A stretch of 64,000 nt of DNA from Bacteroidota bacterium (GTDB lineage: Bacteria > Bacteroidota > Bacteroidia > UKL13-3): assembly GCA_027487835.1 (NCBI GenBank), contig JAIYCU010000019.1, positions 62,001 to 126,000 of the forward strand, given 5' to 3'. How positions within the stretch are numbered: position 1 is the stretch's first letter; every line of letters starts with the position of its first letter. Below the pieces are notes generated by a model. That model saw only the letters and a program-made list of their open reading frames with translations, was not told the origin of the DNA and ran no database searches. A program made the position numbers and the translations under genes. Positions 26,755 to 35,615 of the stretch are shown here, one piece after another.

Positions 26755-29355
26755 ATGAACCTGAATAATTTTACCATCAAGTCGCAGGAAGCTGTGCAAC
26801 AAGCACAGGTTATTGCAGCCAGCAGCGGTCAACAAGCAATTGACACTGGCCATATCTTAAAAGCCTTAATGAACACAGATGAGCAAACCATTTCTTTCTT
26901 GCTCAAGAAACTCAATGTTAACATTCCTAGACTTACCCAAGCTTCCGAAGCTATAATTGACTCCTACCCAAAAGTAAGTGGCGCTGATTCTGGTGCTTAT
27001 TTATCAAATGCGGCCAACCAAGCCCTCGTAAAAGCCCAGGCACAACTAAAAGGGTTTGGCGATGAGTTTGTGGCAGTAGAGCATATTTTACTCGGACTCT
27101 TACTTGGTTCAGACAGTATTGCCAACCTTTTAAAAGACGCAGGCATTAACGAAAAGGATTTGAAATTGGCCATTAAGGATTTGCGTGGCGATTCAAAAGT
27201 TACTTCGCAAAGCGGCGATGCCCAATACAATGCTTTAAATAAATATGCTAAAGACCTTAATGACTTGGCCCGCCAAGGAAAGCTGGATCCCGTAATTGGA
27301 AGGGATGAAGAAATTAGAAGGGTATTGCAAATTTTATCTCGTAGAACAAAAAATAACCCTGTTTTAATTGGTGAACCTGGCGTAGGTAAAACCGCCATTG
27401 CCGAAGGCCTTGCCCATAGAATTGTGAGCGGAGATGTGCCTGAGAATCTAAAAAGCAAAAGGGTTTACTCATTAGACATGGGCTCTTTAATAGCAGGTGC
27501 CAAATACAAAGGGGAGTTTGAAGAACGCTTGAAAGCCGTTATAAAGGAAGTCATTGGCAGTGATGGCGATATTGTTTTATTTATAGATGAGATTCATACC
27601 TTAGTAGGTGCTGGTGGCGGTGGAGAAGGTGCCATGGATGCAGCCAATATTCTTAAACCTGCTTTGGCCCGTGGCGAATTAAGAGCCATTGGAGCAACTA
27701 CTTTGGCAGAATACCAACGATACATTGAAAAAGACAAAGCCTTAGAAAGAAGGTTTCAAAAGGTATATGTAGAGGAACCTGATACCGAAGCAGCCATTTC
27801 TATCTTGCGTGGTTTGAAAGAGCGATACGAAGTGCACCATAAGGTGCGTATCAAGGATGAAGCAATTATTGCTGCAGTAGAACTCTCTCAGCGCTATATC
27901 TCAGATAGATTTTTGCCAGACAAAGCCATTGATTTAATGGATGAAGCTGCATCTAAATTACGTTTAGAAATTGATTCGGTGCCCGAAGAAATCGACCAAA
28001 TGAATCGACGCATCATGCAGTTGGAGATTGAAAGAGAAGCCATCAAACGCGAGGGCAACGATGCCAAAGTAAATGAATTGAGCAAAGAAATTGCCAACTT
28101 ACAAGAAGAATGTAATGCTGTTAAAGCCATATGGCAAAGCGAGAAATTGTTGGTAGATGGCATTCAGCTAGCCAAACAAGATATAGAAAATTTAAGGGTT
28201 GAAGCCGAGCAAGCCGAGCGTGCAGGTGATTTTGGTAAAGTAGCAGAGATTAGATATGGCCGCATCAAAGAGGCAGAGGCCAAGGTAATCGAATTAAAAG
28301 AAAAGCTGCAATCGCAACAAACCAACAAAGCCATGGTAAAGGAAGAAGTGGACAGCGAAGACATTGCCGATGTGGTGAGTCGCTGGACCGGCATTCCAAT
28401 TACCCGCATGTTGCAAAGTGAAAGAGAAAAGTTATTGCACCTAGAAGCCGAATTACACAAACGTGTGGTGGGTCAGGAAGAGGCTATCTCTGCCATTTCT
28501 GATGCCATTAGAAGAAGCAGAGCGGGTTTGTCTGACCCTAAGAAACCCATAGGCTCGTTTATCTTTTTGGGAACTACCGGTGTGGGCAAAACAGAATTGG
28601 CCAAAGCCTTAGCAGGATTTTTATTTAACCAAGAAGATGCCCTTGTGCGCATAGACATGAGCGAATACCAAGAGAAACATACGGTGAGCAGACTAATTGG
28701 TGCCCCTCCGGGATATGTGGGTTATGAAGAAAGTGGTCAGTTAACCGAAGCCATAAGAAGAAGACCTTATTCGGTAGTATTGTTAGATGAGATAGAAAAA
28801 GCCCATCCAGATGTGTTTAATATTTTGTTGCAAGTATTGGATGATGGTCGATTAACGGATAACAAAGGCAGAACGGCTAATTTTAAAAATACCATCATCA
28901 TCATGACCAGCAATATTGGTTCGCACCTGATCCAAGAAAAGTTTGAGAAATACACCGACGCCAATAAAGAGGAAGTGATGGCCGAGGCAAAAACAAGTGT
29001 GATGGAATTATTAAAACGCAGCATCCGACCAGAGTTCTTGAACCGAATTGATGATGTAGTAATGTTTACCCCACTGACCCGTGAGGATGTAAGAAGAATT
29101 GTGGATTTACAATTTATAGACATACAGGCTAAATTAAGCGAGCAAGGAATAAGTATTACGGCAACAGATGAAGCCTTAGATTGGTTATCACAATTGGGAT
29201 ACGACCCACAATATGGTGCACGTCCTTTGAAACGAGTTATCCAAAGAAAGATACTCAATGAATTGAGCAAAGAAATTCTGATGGGTACAATTAAAAAGGA
29301 TTCTAAGATTGAAGTGCAGTTAGATAAGAGCAATCAATTTAGGTTTGTGAATTAG
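26755..29355 (+). CDS. clpB: ATP-dependent disaggregase ClpB
   Basis: An 866-residue Hsp100 chaperone that works with DnaK to dissolve protein aggregates. Domains in order: Clp N-domain (about 1-145; [23 protein letters not shown]), AAA+ module 1 with Walker A GEPGVGKT near residue 206 and Walker B LFIDEIH, a long coiled-coil middle domain (about 400-525) typical of ClpB rather than ClpA/ClpC, AAA+ module 2 with Walker A GTTGVGKT near 606 and Walker B LLDEIEKA, and a C-terminal small domain ([15 protein letters not shown]). Length and motifs are complete. It is a single transcription unit between a terminator and an inverted-repeat tract. Confidence 0.97.
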
Positions 29356-29427
29356 TCCATGGTCGATAGTCGATGGACCATGGTGTATAAATGGACTATG
29401 GTCTATGGACCATTGACCATCGACCCC
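29356..29427. repeat. Degenerate inverted-repeat tract after clpB
   Basis: Starting at the base after the clpB stop, words of the type GGTCGATAGTCGATGG and TGGTCTATGGACC follow one another. The left arm 29361-29384 and the right arm 29395-29425 pair as a long imperfect hairpin; GGTCGATAGTCGATGG and the complement of the far end agree at 14 of 16 positions. It may serve as the clpB terminator but lacks a T tract. Simple tracts of this style occur between genes in several Bacteroidota. Confidence 0.65.
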
Positions 29428-29504: not shown

Positions 29505-32500
29505 ATGGCTGCCTTGCTTAGAACGCTTTTTCTCTTGCTAGTGTCTCAAACTTTGCTCGCGCAAACGCTTCGGTTCAGCCCGAAAGAAGCTTATACCTAT
29601 TATTACAAACTAGATTCTGCAAGGCTTGCGTTCATAATGAAACAAGGGTTAATAGATACTACGTACCTATTTACTCAAAAAGCGGATAGCAGTTTAGCTG
29701 CAAATGCAAAACTAAAGCCTGGTTATTATTTATTAGCCAGTAGGGCTGGTAAAGGTGCCAATTTAAGTGTGCAACAGGTATCGTATTTTAATTTTTCTTA
29801 TGTGGCCTATAATGATAAGGTGGAAGTTAAAGTAATGGATACAGCCTATGCCACACCAACTCAACTTGCGTTTTATGTAAATGGGAAGCCCCTTGATAAA
29901 GACACTACTTGCAATTGCTACTTGCTGCCACTCCAAAAAAAGTCTCATACTGTTTATGTTTCGGATGGTAAAAACTTTGAGTTTGCACGATTTAATTTCT
30001 CTAGTGATATTCAATCAAGCCATAGAAGCAATTCCAATGCATATAGCAGCTCAAAAACCTATAGCTATGGATATGCATTGTGCAATCAACCCATTTATAA
30101 GCCCAAAGATTCAGTTAAAACAAAGGCCTATTTACTTTGGGATGAAGGCGAGCCTGTAAAAGGAAAGGTAGGCATTTATTTATATGCCAATTATTTTAAA
30201 CAAAGGGTTTTGATTAAGCAGGTGAACCCCGTTTCGCCAGGCGCTTATATCTTAGATTTTAAACTGGCCGATTCCTTAAAAATTGACCAAACCTACTCGC
30301 TGCAATACATTGATAGAGAAGGAACCTTGCTAAGAACCATTTCCTTTAAACTAGAAGATTATAAACTAAGAAGTAATACGTATGAAGCCTTTTTAAGTAA
30401 AACAAAATTCTATAAAGGAGAAGCGGTTCAGGTGCAAGTGCGCGCTTTAGATATTAATGGTTTGCCCTTACCAAATGCCAATGTGAAGGCTAAGTTTTCT
30501 ATTAGGCATTTGCGAAATTTTACAGGAACCAAAGCTTTTGTTCCAGAAGAATGGTATCAAAATTTGTATGAAACTGCTGTGCCTGTGGAGAGCAATGGTC
30601 CAACCTTAATTACTTTGCCAGATAGCATCTTAATAGATTTTGATGCCACCTTAACTGCAGAAATTCTTGTAACCGATGTATCAGGTGAATCAAAGTTTTT
30701 TAAGCTCGATTTTGAAAAGGTGCAAGATTCTGTGTATTACCTTATGTCTTTAAAGCAGGATGGTTTGGTGCATGCTTCTTGCATCAATTTAGGAAAGCCA
30801 GAAAGCAAGTACATGAAGCTTAGGTATAAAGTTGGCAATTATCTTCTGGATAGCAGTTGGATAGTATTGCCTGCTAAAATTGCCCTGCATCAGTTTGCCA
30901 ACAATGCTGAGTTATTAGATAGTTCAGGAAAGCTAATTGCCAATTGTGGTTTGCACAGAAAGCAAGATTATATTGCTTTTGATGGCTATCGAAAACCGGG
31001 CGAAATAAGCATTGCCTTGTACAATCCTTCGGCTTTAAATATGCACATACAATTGTTTAGGGGCAAACAAAAAGTGATAGATTTTTATGGCGATTCTTTT
31101 AGTTTTCAGCAAAAAGATACCTCGCGTTTTTCTTATCATTTAATTTATAGCTTACAAGTTCAAGATGGTTTTTTTGTTGAAGAAAGAACCTTTCCTTTCT
31201 TAGATAAAACCATTGAAATTACACATAATATTCCCCAAGAAATTTATCCTGGTCAGACGGTTGCGGTAGATGTAAAGCTAAGTTTGCCCAACCGCAAGCC
31301 AGCCGCAGATGTAAACCTAACTGCTTATGCTATAAATGCCCAGTTTGGCGAAAATTACCAACCTGCATTAGCCAATTTTAATAGCCAAGTTCCACCTTTA
31401 TTAGAAAGGCAGCAAACAGGTTTTGAGCGTTTGCCTTATAGCTATATTAACCGGTTTTTTGAACGCTTATCTTATACCACTTTGCTAAAGGCCGGACTCC
31501 TAACGCAAGCAGATTACCGCTTAATGTATCCCAATGAAGATTGGGTGGTGATAAAAGATTCTACCTACCAAGTATCGCCTGAGGTGCTGCCAATGGTGGT
31601 GGCCAATGGTGCGCGTATACCAGTTTATGCAATTTTGGTAGATGGTCACTTTGTGGCATTGAGAAATCTTTCTCAATCACCCGATTTCCCAATTTTACTA
31701 AGTGCAGGTGCACATCAATTGTCGGTTCGTACCCAAACGGCTTGGTTTCATTTACCTAAGTTTCGGTTTGAACCAAACCAGCATTATGTAATGAGTTTTG
31801 ATACCTTGTGTTTGCCTGAAGGCATCGTTAAAGTTCCTAGGAGTAGCAAAATGAAGTTTAGTGAAGAAGAAATTGATTCCATTAAAAGTAGTTTGCTCTT
31901 TTTTGAACCCGGAAACATGATGGGTGCTAAAGAAAACATTCGCTTTAAGCAAGGTGTGATTGAAATGCCATTTTCACAGTATGCGTTTATTAGCATAAGT
32001 GAAAATGATCAACCTGGTAAATGGGCTTATGGTCCCTTTAAGGCCAACGATTCAATTCAGGTGATGAAGGGAGAACAATTGGTGCAAACGTTTTGGTTCA
32101 ACCCTAAAAAACATTATACCTATTACCAAAACAAAATAATTGGGCAAGAGGCCTCTAGCTTGAGCATCGATTTTAATACATTTTACTTTCAAACTGCTCA
32201 TGCCGATTTTTATAGTAAATACAATACTTATGATAAGGTGCCAACAACCTATGCTGTTTCAGAGCCTTTAATAGAGGAAGGCATATCGGAAAAGCTGTAT
32301 GAAGAAAAATGTAATTTTTCACAATCCTATGTTCCAGATGGCATTAATTTTCCTTTTAGTTTGCACCTAATTGGCGGGCATGCCTCAAATTTATTTCAAG
32401 GATTTATTTACAATGAGAGCAGTCCAAGAAAGAGTATTTCATTGCCTACTTTTTTTCAAAGTGATGTAGGTAGAAAAATAAGTTTTGCTTCAGGAAAGCA

Positions 32501-35500
32501 TACCTTTTATTTGATTGATTTTAACAGGCAGTTAATGGTTTTTACCTTAGAAGAGCAAGTCCAAATTGGGGCTTGGTATATGCGATTAAGTGAAGAAGAT
32601 TTTAACCAACCTTGTGACTTAATTAACCCAATGGTGGCGCTTACACGGCAGTTGGTAGAGGCCGCCAATGCCAATGAAGCTAATCAGATTACGTATAGGG
32701 TAGCCGATTATGTGTCTAAGATTAAGCTACCAAAGTATGAAGTAAACAAAACAGAGTCGGCTGCCGAGGTTTGGGGCTTTGTTACCAAAGACGAAGGCGC
32801 CAGTCTTTCTGATGTGGTAATCACCTTAGAGCAAAATGGCATTATCAAAGGCATTTCCTTTTCGGATGTGAGTGGCGGTTTTTTGTTTAAGGATATGGAG
32901 CCAGGCATTTATGAATTGCGCTTTACTAGGTTTGGTTCATGCATTACCATTTTACAAAATTTAAAGGTTGCCAAGCAAAGCAGTGTGCAGCTAAAAGTAG
33001 ATTTAAAACTATGTGGCTTTTCTGATGAAAATGGTAGAATGGTGCCATCTATCTTTTTTGCTAGAAAGAAAATTGATGTGGAAAAGGAAATGCAAGTAGC
33101 CAATAGCAATTTGTTTAGTGAGAAGGTATATGAGAAACCTATGCCAGGAACTGGGGGCGTAAAGGGAAAAATTATAGACATAAAAGTACAATCCGCTTTG
33201 GCTTATGTGACGATTACGTTAATTAATAAGAAAAGTAAGAAGTATAATACCGTTACCAATGATAACGGCGAGTTTATGATTCGTAATTTGGCACCCGGCA
33301 CTTATAGGTTAATAGCTAATTTTGTTGGGTATAGGAGTGTGGTGATTGAAGATATAGAGGTGTTTGCTTCAGAAGACCGATTGGTAAGCTTTGCCATGGA
33401 AGAGAGTAACCAACTGCTGCAAGAGGTGATGGTGGTCAATAGGAAAATGTCACCTGAAAATTCAATGTTGGCGGCACCTTCTCATTCAATTGAAAGATTA
33501 TCAGGGCAAACAATGGGTGTTGAATCAAGATCTGGCGGAACACCAGTTTTTCGCGGTGCTAGGGCAGAAGGCACAGCCTATTATGTTGATGGAGTGCGGA
33601 TGTCTGCTGGCTATAATTCGGCTCCTCTAAATAACATCAACTCCTCTTTAAGCATAGACAATATAGATTTGTTTAAAGCCAATCAGCGTGCCCGCATGTA
33701 TGAAATGGTAAACAACCAAAATATAAAATCTGAGCGCGACGAGTTTAAAGATTATGGGTATTGGGTACCCAACTTGGTGAGCGATAAAAAGGGAGAAGCC
33801 CATTTTACCATTACTTTTCCAGATAATATTACACGCTGGCAAAATTATATCGTTGCCATGAATGCGCGCTTAGATAATAAATTGGTGGTGTTTGATACCC
33901 GTTCTTTTAAACCCTTAATGGCCCAACTTTACTTGCCACGGTTTGCCATAGAAGGGGATAGCATGGTTGCAGAAGGTGCAGTAAATAACTATTCGGGCGA
34001 CAGTATTTCATTGCAATTGTCGTTTCAGTTAAATGACTCTACAGTAAAGCAACAGCCTGTTTTAATAGGAGCAGGTTATCGCTTAACACATGGATTTAAG
34101 TTTGGGTCGAACCAAAACCCATTAATTGGCTTTCAACTAAGCACCGATTTTGGATACAAAGATGCAGAGAAACGAAGTGTTCCTGTTTTTCCAAATGGCA
34201 TCATGAGCGCCGATGTTTCTAAAGCTGTCCTCAGGGGTGATAGCAGTTGGGAATTCACTACAGATAGTATCGGCGAAAGTGAATTGAGCATTTCAAATAC
34301 CTTTACTCAATTGCTCAAAGAAGAAATTGAGAAGCTCCAAAACTATGCGTATGGCTGCGTTGAGCAAACAACCTCTAAACTCTCCGCCCTTTTAATAGAA
34401 AAGAGTTTAAACAAGCTTATTGGAGATACCTTTACCAAAGACAATATGGTGAAACTTTGCTTAAACAGGCTTGCCGACCAGCAGCACAGAAATGGCGGTT
34501 GGGGCTGGTTTAGAGACGGTCATGGCGAAGTTTGGATTAGCCATTATGTAATGAAAACCCTTTGGAAAGCCAAGCAAATGGGCTATGCAACAGAGGCTGT
34601 GGGCAAAGGCATAAGTTTCTTTCAAAAGAACTTAGCTTCCTTTTCTACAAGCGATAGAATCTTGGCCATGGATATTTTGTTTTTATATAAAGTAGAATTC
34701 GACCTCAACCAATTTTTGAGAAGCTTAGACGAGGCTACTTTAAATGAAACAGATAGGTTACGCCTTAATTTATTAAAGCAACAAATGGGAGAGCCCAGTT
34801 TTGCTGGCTATTTGTTTAGCGATTTAAAAATGAACAAAGACAGCAGCATTTGGTGGAATTACAGTGGAAGAGGAATGTATCAATCTACCTTTAGTAATAC
34901 CTTGTTGGCCTATGAATTGTTAAAAGGCAGCGAAACCCCTACATGGATTTTAAAGGGCGTAAAACAATACTTCTTGCGCGAGAAATTGTTTGGCACCTTG
35001 CAAGGGCTAAACACTTTAGATGCGGCCCGTATCATAGAAATGTTTGCCATAGAAATGTCATTAGAAGAAAAGGGAACACTTAAAACAAGCTTGTCTTTAA
35101 ACAATATTCCTTTAGCCAATCAATCGCCTGCAAGGTACCCATTGGCCAAGCATACAAAGTATATCTTAAGCCATCAAGGGCCAAGAACATTTGTTCAGGT
35201 AAACCGACGGTATTGGAACAGCCAACCGCAAGCAGATAGCAATAAGTTTGTGATTAGTACCAAGTTTTTGCAAGAGAAAAAAGAAGTACAGTTGCTCAAG
35301 CAAAATGTACCCTTGCTATACACTGTGAGCATTCAATCAAAGCAAGATGTAGAATTTATTTTGGTTAAAATTCCAATTCCTGCCTCTTGCGAGTATGCTG
35401 ATAAACCTAGCTTTCCGGGTGCAGTAGAAGTTAGTTACCATAAAAATGAAGTATGGGTTTTTTACCGCAGCATGGCAAAAGGTACAAAGGTTTTAAGTTT

Positions 35501-35615
35501 TCGGCTTGAACCAAGATTTGGGGGCAGTTATACTTTGCTACCTGTTCAAATTGAGCAAATGTATGAGCCCGATCAAAGAGGTAACAATGAAGTGAAAAGG
35601 GTAGAGGTGAGGTAG
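29505..35615 (+). CDS. Alpha-2-macroglobulin family protein with embedded TonB-plug-like module
   Basis: A 2,036-residue exported protein with signal peptide (cleavage near LLAQ) and no lipobox. An MG2-type domain is marked by QPIYKPKDSVKTKAYL near residue 193, and a further macroglobulin-like domain by EIYPGQTVAVDVKL near 575. Two carboxypeptidase-regulatory-like sandwiches follow (about 1085-1165 and 1218-1300). The second runs into a TonB-receptor-plug-like segment (about 1320-1400; GGTPVFRGARAEGTAYYVDGV) with no barrel after it. Then come an A2M domain (GYWVPNLVSDKKGEAHFTI, about 1417) and a thioester domain with intact Cys1618-Val-Glu-Gln1621 in YGCVEQTTS, plus NGGWGWF. Bacterial macroglobulins trap or block foreign proteases by covalent attachment; this one probably works in the periplasm or at the outer membrane. 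The plug-like insert is unexplained. A convergent cupin gene ends 3 bp away. Confidence 0.88.
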   Translation: MAALLRTLFLLLVSQTLLAQTLRFSPKEAYTYYYKLDSARLAFIMKQGLIDTTYLFTQKADSSLAANAKLKPGYYLLASRAGKGANLSVQQVSYFNFSYVAYNDKVEVKVMDTAYATPTQLAFYVNGKPLDKDTTCNCYLLPLQKKSHTVYVSDGKNFEFARFNFSSDIQSSHRSNSNAYSSSKTYSYGYALCNQPIYKPKDSVKTKAYLLWDEGEPVKGKVGIYLYANYFKQRVLIKQVNPVSPGAYILDFKLADSLKIDQTYSLQYIDREGTLLRTISFKLEDYKLRSNTYEAFLSKTKFYKGEAVQVQVRALDINGLPLPNANVKAKFSIRHLRNFTGTKAFVPEEWYQNLYETAVPVESNGPTLITLPDSILIDFDATLTAEILVTDVSGESKFFKLDFEKVQDSVYYLMSLKQDGLVHASCINLGKPESKYMKLRYKVGNYLLDSSWIVLPAKIALHQFANNAELLDSSGKLIANCGLHRKQDYIAFDGYRKPGEISIALYNPSALNMHIQLFRGKQKVIDFYGDSFSFQQKDTSRFSYHLIYSLQVQDGFFVEERTFPFLDKTIEITHNIPQEIYPGQTVAVDVKLSLPNRKPAADVNLTAYAINAQFGENYQPALANFNSQVPPLLERQQTGFERLPYSYINRFFERLSYTTLLKAGLLTQADYRLMYPNEDWVVIKDSTYQVSPEVLPMVVANGARIPVYAILVDGHFVALRNLSQSPDFPILLSAGAHQLSVRTQTAWFHLPKFRFEPNQHYVMSFDTLCLPEGIVKVPRSSKMKFSEEEIDSIKSSLLFFEPGNMMGAKENIRFKQGVIEMPFSQYAFISISENDQPGKWAYGPFKANDSIQVMKGEQLVQTFWFNPKKHYTYYQNKIIGQEASSLSIDFNTFYFQTAHADFYSKYNTYDKVPTTYAVSEPLIEEGISEKLYEEKCNFSQSYVPDGINFPFSLHLIGGHASNLFQGFIYNESSPRKSISLPTFFQSDVGRKISFASGKHTFYLIDFNRQLMVFTLEEQVQIGAWYMRLSEEDFNQPCDLINPMVALTRQLVEAANANEANQITYRVADYVSKIKLPKYEVNKTESAAEVWGFVTKDEGASLSDVVITLEQNGIIKGISFSDVSGGFLFKDMEPGIYELRFTRFGSCITILQNLKVAKQSSVQLKVDLKLCGFSDENGRMVPSIFFARKKIDVEKEMQVANSNLFSEKVYEKPMPGTGGVKGKIIDIKVQSALAYVTITLINKKSKKYNTVTNDNGEFMIRNLAPGTYRLIANFVGYRSVVIEDIEVFASEDRLVSFAMEESNQLLQEVMVVNRKMSPENSMLAAPSHSIERLSGQTMGVESRSGGTPVFRGARAEGTAYYVDGVRMSAGYNSAPLNNINSSLSIDNIDLFKANQRARMYEMVNNQNIKSERDEFKDYGYWVPNLVSDKKGEAHFTITFPDNITRWQNYIVAMNARLDNKLVVFDTRSFKPLMAQLYLPRFAIEGDSMVAEGAVNNYSGDSISLQLSFQLNDSTVKQQPVLIGAGYRLTHGFKFGSNQNPLIGFQLSTDFGYKDAEKRSVPVFPNGIMSADVSKAVLRGDSSWEFTTDSIGESELSISNTFTQLLKEEIEKLQNYAYGCVEQTTSKLSALLIEKSLNKLIGDTFTKDNMVKLCLNRLADQQHRNGGWGWFRDGHGEVWISHYVMKTLWKAKQMGYATEAVGKGISFFQKNLASFSTSDRILAMDILFLYKVEFDLNQFLRSLDEATLNETDRLRLNLLKQQMGEPSFAGYLFSDLKMNKDSSIWWNYSGRGMYQSTFSNTLLAYELLKGSETPTWILKGVKQYFLREKLFGTLQGLNTLDAARIIEMFAIEMSLEEKGTLKTSLSLNNIPLANQSPARYPLAKHTKYILSHQGPRTFVQVNRRYWNSQPQADSNKFVISTKFLQEKKEVQLLKQNVPLLYTVSIQSKQDVEFILVKIPIPASCEYADKPSFPGAVEVSYHKNEVWVFYRSMAKGTKVLSFRLEPRFGGSYTLLPVQIEQMYEPDQRGNNEVKRVEVR

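Follow-up and report, generated by a model that had tools for sequence, protein, structure and literature searches.

The bait of bacterial macroglobulins is generally regarded as loose and broad. The bait regions of alpha-2-macroglobulins (A2Ms) are described as largely disordered, and their cleavage triggers the protein (PMC4498604, PMC9352918); in the Escherichia coli and Salmonella A2Ms an EXMY motif has also been described (PMC4498604). For TonB-dependent receptors, reports that bear on the present case concern Bt1763, in which DEVVVTG was identified by mutation as the TonB box, flexible there and separate from the N-terminal extension (NTE) (PMC7782687), FepA, whose isolated plug behaves as unfolded according to a review (PMC11658791), and Oar, an NTE-bearing Myxococcus receptor reported to be required for secretion of the protease PopC (PMC6434023). 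The gene described here lies in a stretch of 64,000 nucleotides (the window) of a Bacteroidota bacterium (assembly GCA_027487835.1, contig JAIYCU010000019.1, positions 62,001 to 126,000). It encodes a thioester A2M that carries, directly before its A2M/MG7 domain, a module like that of TonB-dependent receptors, consisting of an NTE, a TonB-box-like motif and a plug-like segment. We give about even odds to the reading that this module has replaced the A2M bait region and that the product traps proteases covalently, as a soluble and probably periplasmic protein.

The open reading frame (ORF) at 29505-35615 on the plus strand encodes a product of 2036 residues. Its Pfam matches fall in the order CarboxypepD_reg domain(s), plug, A2M/MG7 (MG, macroglobulin domain), thioester domain (TED) and bMG10, and the features, in window coordinates, are as follows.

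29505-35615, plus strand: whole gene, thioester A2M with a TonB-receptor module in the bait interval, 2036 residues (ORF, Pfam and motif positions)
29505-29564, plus strand: signal-peptide-like N terminus without lipobox, MAALLRTLFLLLVSQTLLAQ (sequence, by eye)
32769-33005, plus strand: carboxypeptidase-regulatory-like domain no. 1, residues 1089-1167, with no TonB box seen behind it by eye (29.8 bits, cut-off 32.3)
33159-33398, plus strand: carboxypeptidase-regulatory-like domain no. 2, corresponding to the receptor NTE, residues 1219-1298 (Pfam; AlphaFold2 (AF2) block means of 95-98 when the module is modelled alone)
33417-33434, plus strand: TonB-box-like motif LQEVMV, residues 1305-1310 (matrix score and alignment)
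33411-33677, plus strand: predicted-disordered stretch, residues 1303-1391, proposed bait region (AF2 per-residue confidence, pLDDT, below 50 throughout, 10-residue means 22-42)
33483-33695, plus strand: plug-like segment PF07715, residues 1327-1397, with a conserved core at 1336-1366 (Pfam, own-genome profile search, conservation, receptor alignment)
33603-33740, plus strand: post-plug linker, fast-evolving and indel-rich, residues 1367-1412 (conservation 0.25; ratio of nonsynonymous to synonymous substitution rates, dN/dS, 0.31)
33759-34019, plus strand: A2M domain PF00207/MG7, residues 1419-1505 (Pfam)
34302-35066, plus strand: TED, residues ~1600-1854 (helical in AF2, 10-residue means 67-95; Pfam; alignment to solved TEDs; Foldseek)
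34356-34367, plus strand: thioester motif Cys1618-Val-Glu-Gln1621, CVEQ (motif position)
35292-35573, plus strand: bMG10 domain, residues 1930-2023, with the EXMY motif EQMY at 2017-2020 (35553-35564) (Pfam and motif)

The macroglobulin part is recognized by PF00207 (E 2e-12, 47.2 bits) and bMG10 (E 3.1e-10, 40.8 bits), both above cut-off, and by a weak TED match (E 7.3e-5, 22.4 bits, cut-off 22); the CXEQ motif at 1618 lies within a TED predicted to be alpha-helical. With sequence profiles as the only means of detection, MG2 (PF01835) remains below cut-off (E 0.07) and PF07703 (A2M_BRD) is absent among the matches up to E 1. The N terminus resembles a cleavable signal peptide, and by eye no lipobox is seen in it. 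CarboxypepD_reg matches two stretches (E 5.4e-22), the better one at 1219-1298.

The plug model PF07715 matches residues 1327-1397 slightly below its cut-off of 23.9 (E 2.3e-4, 22.1 bits), and in a search of the own genome (3.38 Mb in 46 contigs, with the window on contig C3) the same model gives 27.1 bits at this segment, above that cut-off. In a set of 47 sequences the plug-like part shares 48% identity over 82 residues (E 6e-22) with a 1275-residue TonB receptor of the same genome, hereafter receptor X, a resemblance that exceeds chance. The sequence GGTPVFRG starts at residue 1344. In the alignments nothing in the window copy corresponds to the end of the receptor plug, and no beta-barrel is present: MG7 comes after the plug, and none of the 15 Pfam matches with E up to 1 is to a barrel family. 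The earlier note on this DNA, made from the sequence alone, had described a plug-like segment with no barrel, an intact thioester and two carboxypeptidase-regulatory-like domains; the first three hold, the segment being plug-derived, and of the two domains the one at 1219-1298 is confirmed and the one at 1089-1167 falls short of its threshold.

The TonB-box-like motif was scored with a 9-residue matrix over the 180 residues before MG7. Against a null of 1306 windows (99th percentile 10.58, maximum 16.4), the window motif reaches 13.2 bits, between the two values; the training set of the matrix was 60 of 70 receptor rows, picked by regular expression, so that it is not independent of our idea of the motif. 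The 99th percentile is passed in 13 of 14 window-type, 40 of 43 SusC-type and 15 of 27 weak modules and in 13 of 77 other A2Ms. In alignment A3 the Glu of the box is invariant (32 of 32 rows), the Leu two positions before it occurs in 31, and the Val directly after and that three after it in 29 each. Ranked against all 6-mers, the box falls within the top 2.5% for the window clade and the top 7.6% for a 34-row set, where it is the best conserved of the module by identity and the second by similarity.

Structure prediction is consistent with an unfolded plug part. The AF2 model of residues 840-2036 (34 alignment rows) has a mean pLDDT of 72.4, with about 80 for the second carboxypeptidase-like domain and mostly above 80 for the TED; the low-confidence stretch 1303-1391 has two strands of 2 residues each and ends in a short helix. 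In the model of the module alone (32 rows), the part outside the carboxypeptidase-like domain gives 40-75, with short strands and two helices, and the plug part is left unfolded. Foldseek with this module model returns carboxypeptidase- and transthyretin-like folds first, the SusC NTE (6ytc) at rank 35, and no TonB-receptor plug among the 50 matches listed. Since bait regions are largely disordered and the FepA plug is unfolded without its barrel, a plug that lacks its barrel and lies at the bait position is a plausible bait. Position speaks for it as well: in relatives in which both are found, the bait-region domain PF07703 stops before the module and PF00207 comes after it, and this placement between the bait-region domain and MG7 points to the bait region. 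The earlier note mentions neither the bait region nor the TonB box.

The search for the same architecture in Bacteroidota that the earlier note had proposed finds it widespread. Within the genus, one ortholog shares 91% identity (G007) and six more full-length ones 34-37%, all with the same architecture, which rejects a sequence artefact. Named genomes, scanned with the window clade as seed, yielded 79 loci from the best 80 of 209 relatives; nine without an MG7 motif by pattern were not counted, and in the remaining 70 the module is strong in 51, weak in 18 and absent in one, a share biased upward because the set was ranked by likeness to the window. Relatives L132-L139 are metagenome-assembled genomes (MAGs) of uncultured Bacteroidia/Bacteroidota; cultured carriers include Terrimonas ferruginea DSM 30193 (L157), Ohtaekwangia koreensis DSM 25262 (L207) and Lewinella cohaerens DSM 23179 (L173). 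A phylum sample, one draw of 148 genomes, contains A2M matches in 66 of them (87 genes, including two of the own genome), with classes assigned by simple, crude patterns and the window A2M and L090 moved to class 2 by hand. Among 37 class-2-like genes picked by eye (30 of 85 in the sample, plus seven others), Pfam finds Plug above cut-off in six and the CarboxypepD-like domain in 13. NCBIfam, applied to 20 segments including that of the window, matches TIGR04056 (SusC/RagA N terminus) with E <1e-18 in 11 (best 5.8e-66) and the SusC signature above cut-off in five; the window segment matches neither, so that two kinds of module exist, a SusC-type and that of the window. The box of the SusC-type A2M modules is identical to the Bt1763 box as reported (PMC7782687).

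Single copies deviate. In a same-genus locus (L044, G009:C13:2433-2671), only the first 50 and last 38 A2M residues match, directly next to each other, which looks like an internal deletion. The ortholog L009 (G006:C138) has one in-frame TAG and is either a pseudogene or a sequence error. The module-bearing A2M L179, from a MAG labelled Thermoanaerobaculia, groups with L143 of Saprospiraceae, by misbinning or transfer.

The module appears to derive from receptors. Among the Plug-bearing ORFs of the own genome it is closest to receptor X (40% identity over 201 residues), and the next one reaches 31% over 166. A first tree held 128 rows, after receptor rows lacking the core pattern (15 of 101) had been removed and SusC receptors thinned to 18; four rows labelled receptors (L277, L278, L288, L297) are really A2M ORFs and were not used in the careful tree, which took 67 of the 128 rows and left out the long rows L140 and L159 and the near-copy L132. 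From the module tables, L003-L009, L034 and L035 were omitted as copies of L132-L138, L158 and L189. In the careful tree the window clade groups with receptor X (99/99), with the A2M rows inside not resolved as one clade; a Lewinella A2M module and the receptor-X homolog from the same genome form a pair (99/98), and the SusC-type A2M modules group with SusC (98/95). Approximately unbiased (AU) tests reject a single clade of all A2M modules (p 0.0006) and one of the receptor-X-type A2M modules (p 0.0005), and with them a single ancient fusion, although these p-values are weakened by the groups having been named after the first tree had been seen. On a quick tree of the A2M backbone, the two module kinds require three changes. 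Swaps of this kind thus seem to have occurred repeatedly and independently in related bacteria, each time with the same receptor piece and in the same place.

In seven genomes with both genes, the module identity between the A2M and its own receptor (0.534) exceeds that between A2M and receptor across genomes (0.472) and that between A2Ms (0.461); the excess of own over cross-genome identity has p 0.0014 over all 5040 permutations and p 0.0071 for the plug core alone, and the own receptor is the single best for the whole module in just three of the seven. At synonymous sites, which are saturated, own-genome pairs differ no less than others (mean own pS, the proportion of synonymous differences, 0.776; p 0.91), which rejects recent gene conversion from the receptor. 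The signal thus lies in the protein and not at synonymous sites, and either tracking at the protein level or old repeated capture or conversion would account for it.

Receptor X itself (L033, G000:C46:194.5 kb) comprises an NTE and a plug within its 1275 residues, and matching frames of ~1200-1300 residues occur in many genomes of the same family. A barrel-less plug also exists alone: in the genus of the window, L319-L330 are free-standing proteins of ~125 residues with a signal peptide, barely more than the receptor-X plug core (..GTAYFVDGIRVRSG..), ending in an aromatic residue. The frame is found in 12 of 19 genus genomes, with internal stops in two of the 12, and ten intact sequences were aligned; in the own genome the plug-core search matched the receptor and the window A2M only.

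Conservation is uneven along the module. For the nine sequences of the window clade (near-copy L132 left out) the mean column identity is 0.374, with 0.58 in MG7, 0.54 in the plug core, 0.44 in the TonB-box stretch, 0.29 in the linker and 0.25 in the post-plug part. Between the window A2M and L132, dN/dS is 0.104 for the whole protein, 0.080 for the second carboxypeptidase-like domain, 0.180 from the TonB box to the plug core and 0.312 for the post-plug linker, the fastest part, in which 11 of 46 codons are unaligned. Of six other pairs, one has saturated dS and five give 0.11-0.33 for the two module windows, with one value not computable, where the whole proteins give 0.09-0.11. The module is thus under purifying selection, yet, beginning with the TonB box, it changes faster than the remainder of the protein.

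In the reading that we favour, the plug part, having no barrel, would probably be unfolded and open to proteases. Cleavage there, or in the variable linker that follows, would free the MG/TED arms and expose the Cys-Gln thioester, by which the protease would be trapped covalently. Since the TonB box and the plug core are held by selection, the module may also mimic receptors towards a partner, most simply TonB, and the trap would then be held where receptors and TonB meet. A plain bait leaves the preserved box and core unexplained; TonB contact, or receptor mimicry towards an attacker, explains them. Bait function is the most likely role of the module, and TonB contact is possible in addition.

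Several points weigh against this interpretation. The window TonB box is less canonical than those of the SusC type (median 22.6 bits), and 15 of 32 class-2 A2Ms of the phylum sample score below 10.6. Residues 1342-1366 rank eighth among 25-residue windows for conservation in the clade, and a free bait should need no such core. Other stretches of the AF2 model also lie below pLDDT 50 (e.g., 882-933), 1390-1469 after the module reaches just 55-66, and shallow alignments such as the two used can by themselves depress confidence. A longer bait is reported to predispose human A2M to collapse (PMC9352918), so that a long insert may be costly. No neighbour family (ORFs of at least 110 residues) is common to more than eight of the 79 loci, which also rejects a specific operon. 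What the computations show is the architecture, its position, the intact thioester motif, the repeated capture, the selective constraint and the predicted disorder; bait function, trapping, periplasmic location and TonB binding are inferred from these.

That TonB is the main ligand, with energised TonB-ExbBD binding, recruiting or pulling the A2M and the short variable linker being the bait proper, we consider unlikely, even if such pulling could prime the trap. The distribution of the box speaks in its favour: the null maximum is exceeded by 12 of 32 class-2 against 0 of 55 class-1 A2Ms of the phylum sample (Fisher 1.3e-6). The box can also outlive its neighbours, as in L074, L076, L084, L072, L053 and L082, which score 16.0-23.5 bits with no module-profile match (no NCBIfam match in five; E 0.01 in L082), and the own genome has six TonB_C matches. 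On the other side, plug-like pieces (e.g., GKVAGVRIRG) precede the box in scrambled order, by eye, in the bait interval of L074, L076 and L082, and the plug core is conserved about as well as the box.

A similarly low chance is given to hitch-hiking, in which illegitimate recombination would occasionally insert the N-terminal part of a receptor into a bait region that tolerates it, to decay there. The opportunity exists, as A2Ms and receptors both bear carboxypeptidase-like domains and receptors are numerous (30 Plug matches in the own genome, one being the window A2M); decayed and scrambled copies occur, the module evolves faster from the TonB box on, and the bait of human A2M can be replaced by Gly/Ser with function retained, as reported (PMC9352918). 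The persisting purifying selection up to the plug core, the invariant TonB-box Glu and the protein-level likeness to the own-genome receptor argue against it. The FhuA plug and barrel can work when made separately, and complete SusC plugs up to the barrel start, followed directly by MG7, occur in a few relatives such as L172, yet the docking of a folded plug into a barrel encoded elsewhere, by which the earlier note had placed the trap at an outer-membrane channel, is very unlikely, as the segment is predicted to be unfolded in both AF2 runs, the end of the receptor plug is missing from the window copy, and in some relatives a strong TonB box occurs where no plug is matched by profile.

A more far-reaching reading, improbable as it stands, is a Ton-linked protease trap: the A2M would bind energised TonB via the TonB box in its bait, the proton-motive force would position, prime or mechanically trigger the trap, and the bait, as an integrated decoy, would keep pace with the receptors of its own cell. 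On the favoured reading itself, it seems that in many Bacteroidota, and more than once, the part of the cell's own receptors that contacts TonB has been placed in the bait, the contact motif being kept; if true, this is a bacterial parallel to integrated decoys, and it makes testable which proteases these traps are made for and whether TonB has partners beyond outer-membrane transporters. Among the matches listed in a search of open-access literature (subscription papers and preprints lay outside it), no paper joins a macroglobulin with TonB, a plug domain or a TonB box.

The surroundings of the gene also set it apart. As the earlier note had remarked, no PbpC-like ORF is present among its neighbours. 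A second A2M of the own genome, a 1891-residue frame on contig C46, has no module, and the sole BiPBP_C (PbpC) match of the genome (C46:8509) adjoins it by coordinates; the usual PbpC pair is thus present elsewhere, with the plug-less A2M, and the window gene belongs to a different A2M class. Directly upstream of it, at 29350-29425, short repeated units resembling ccatggtc/gaccatgg are seen by eye.

Compared with known systems, the Type II A2M MagD of Pseudomonas is described as sharing the signal peptide without lipobox, and as differing in having no CXEQ and a six-gene operon (PMC5764988), whereas the window A2M has CXEQ and no common neighbourhood is seen. SusC/RagA and Oar-like TonB-dependent receptors share the NTE (PF13620/PF13715), have a TonB box and a plug that the window motif and segment resemble, and differ in that a barrel follows the plug there and MG7 follows it here; the A3 module profile, which includes SusC-type rows, matches Bt1763 (5t3r) with E 1.4e-47, and a profile of the window clade only with E 0.0056. 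The closest likeness in the macroglobulin part is to Type I bacterial A2Ms (E. coli YfhM/ECAM, Salmonella SaA2M), which have the same CXEQ thioester, TED, order of MG7 and C-terminal MG domains and EXMY motif; C.EQ is present in 69 of the 70 relatives with an MG7 motif, and E.M[YF] in 52. Salmonella A2M (4u48) is the top Foldseek match of the window A2M model (E 3.2e-33), and phmmer pairs YGCVEQTTS of the window with YGCLEQTTS. Unlike Type I A2Ms, the window A2M is without a PF07703 match, a visible lipobox or a PbpC neighbour, and a receptor module fills its bait interval.

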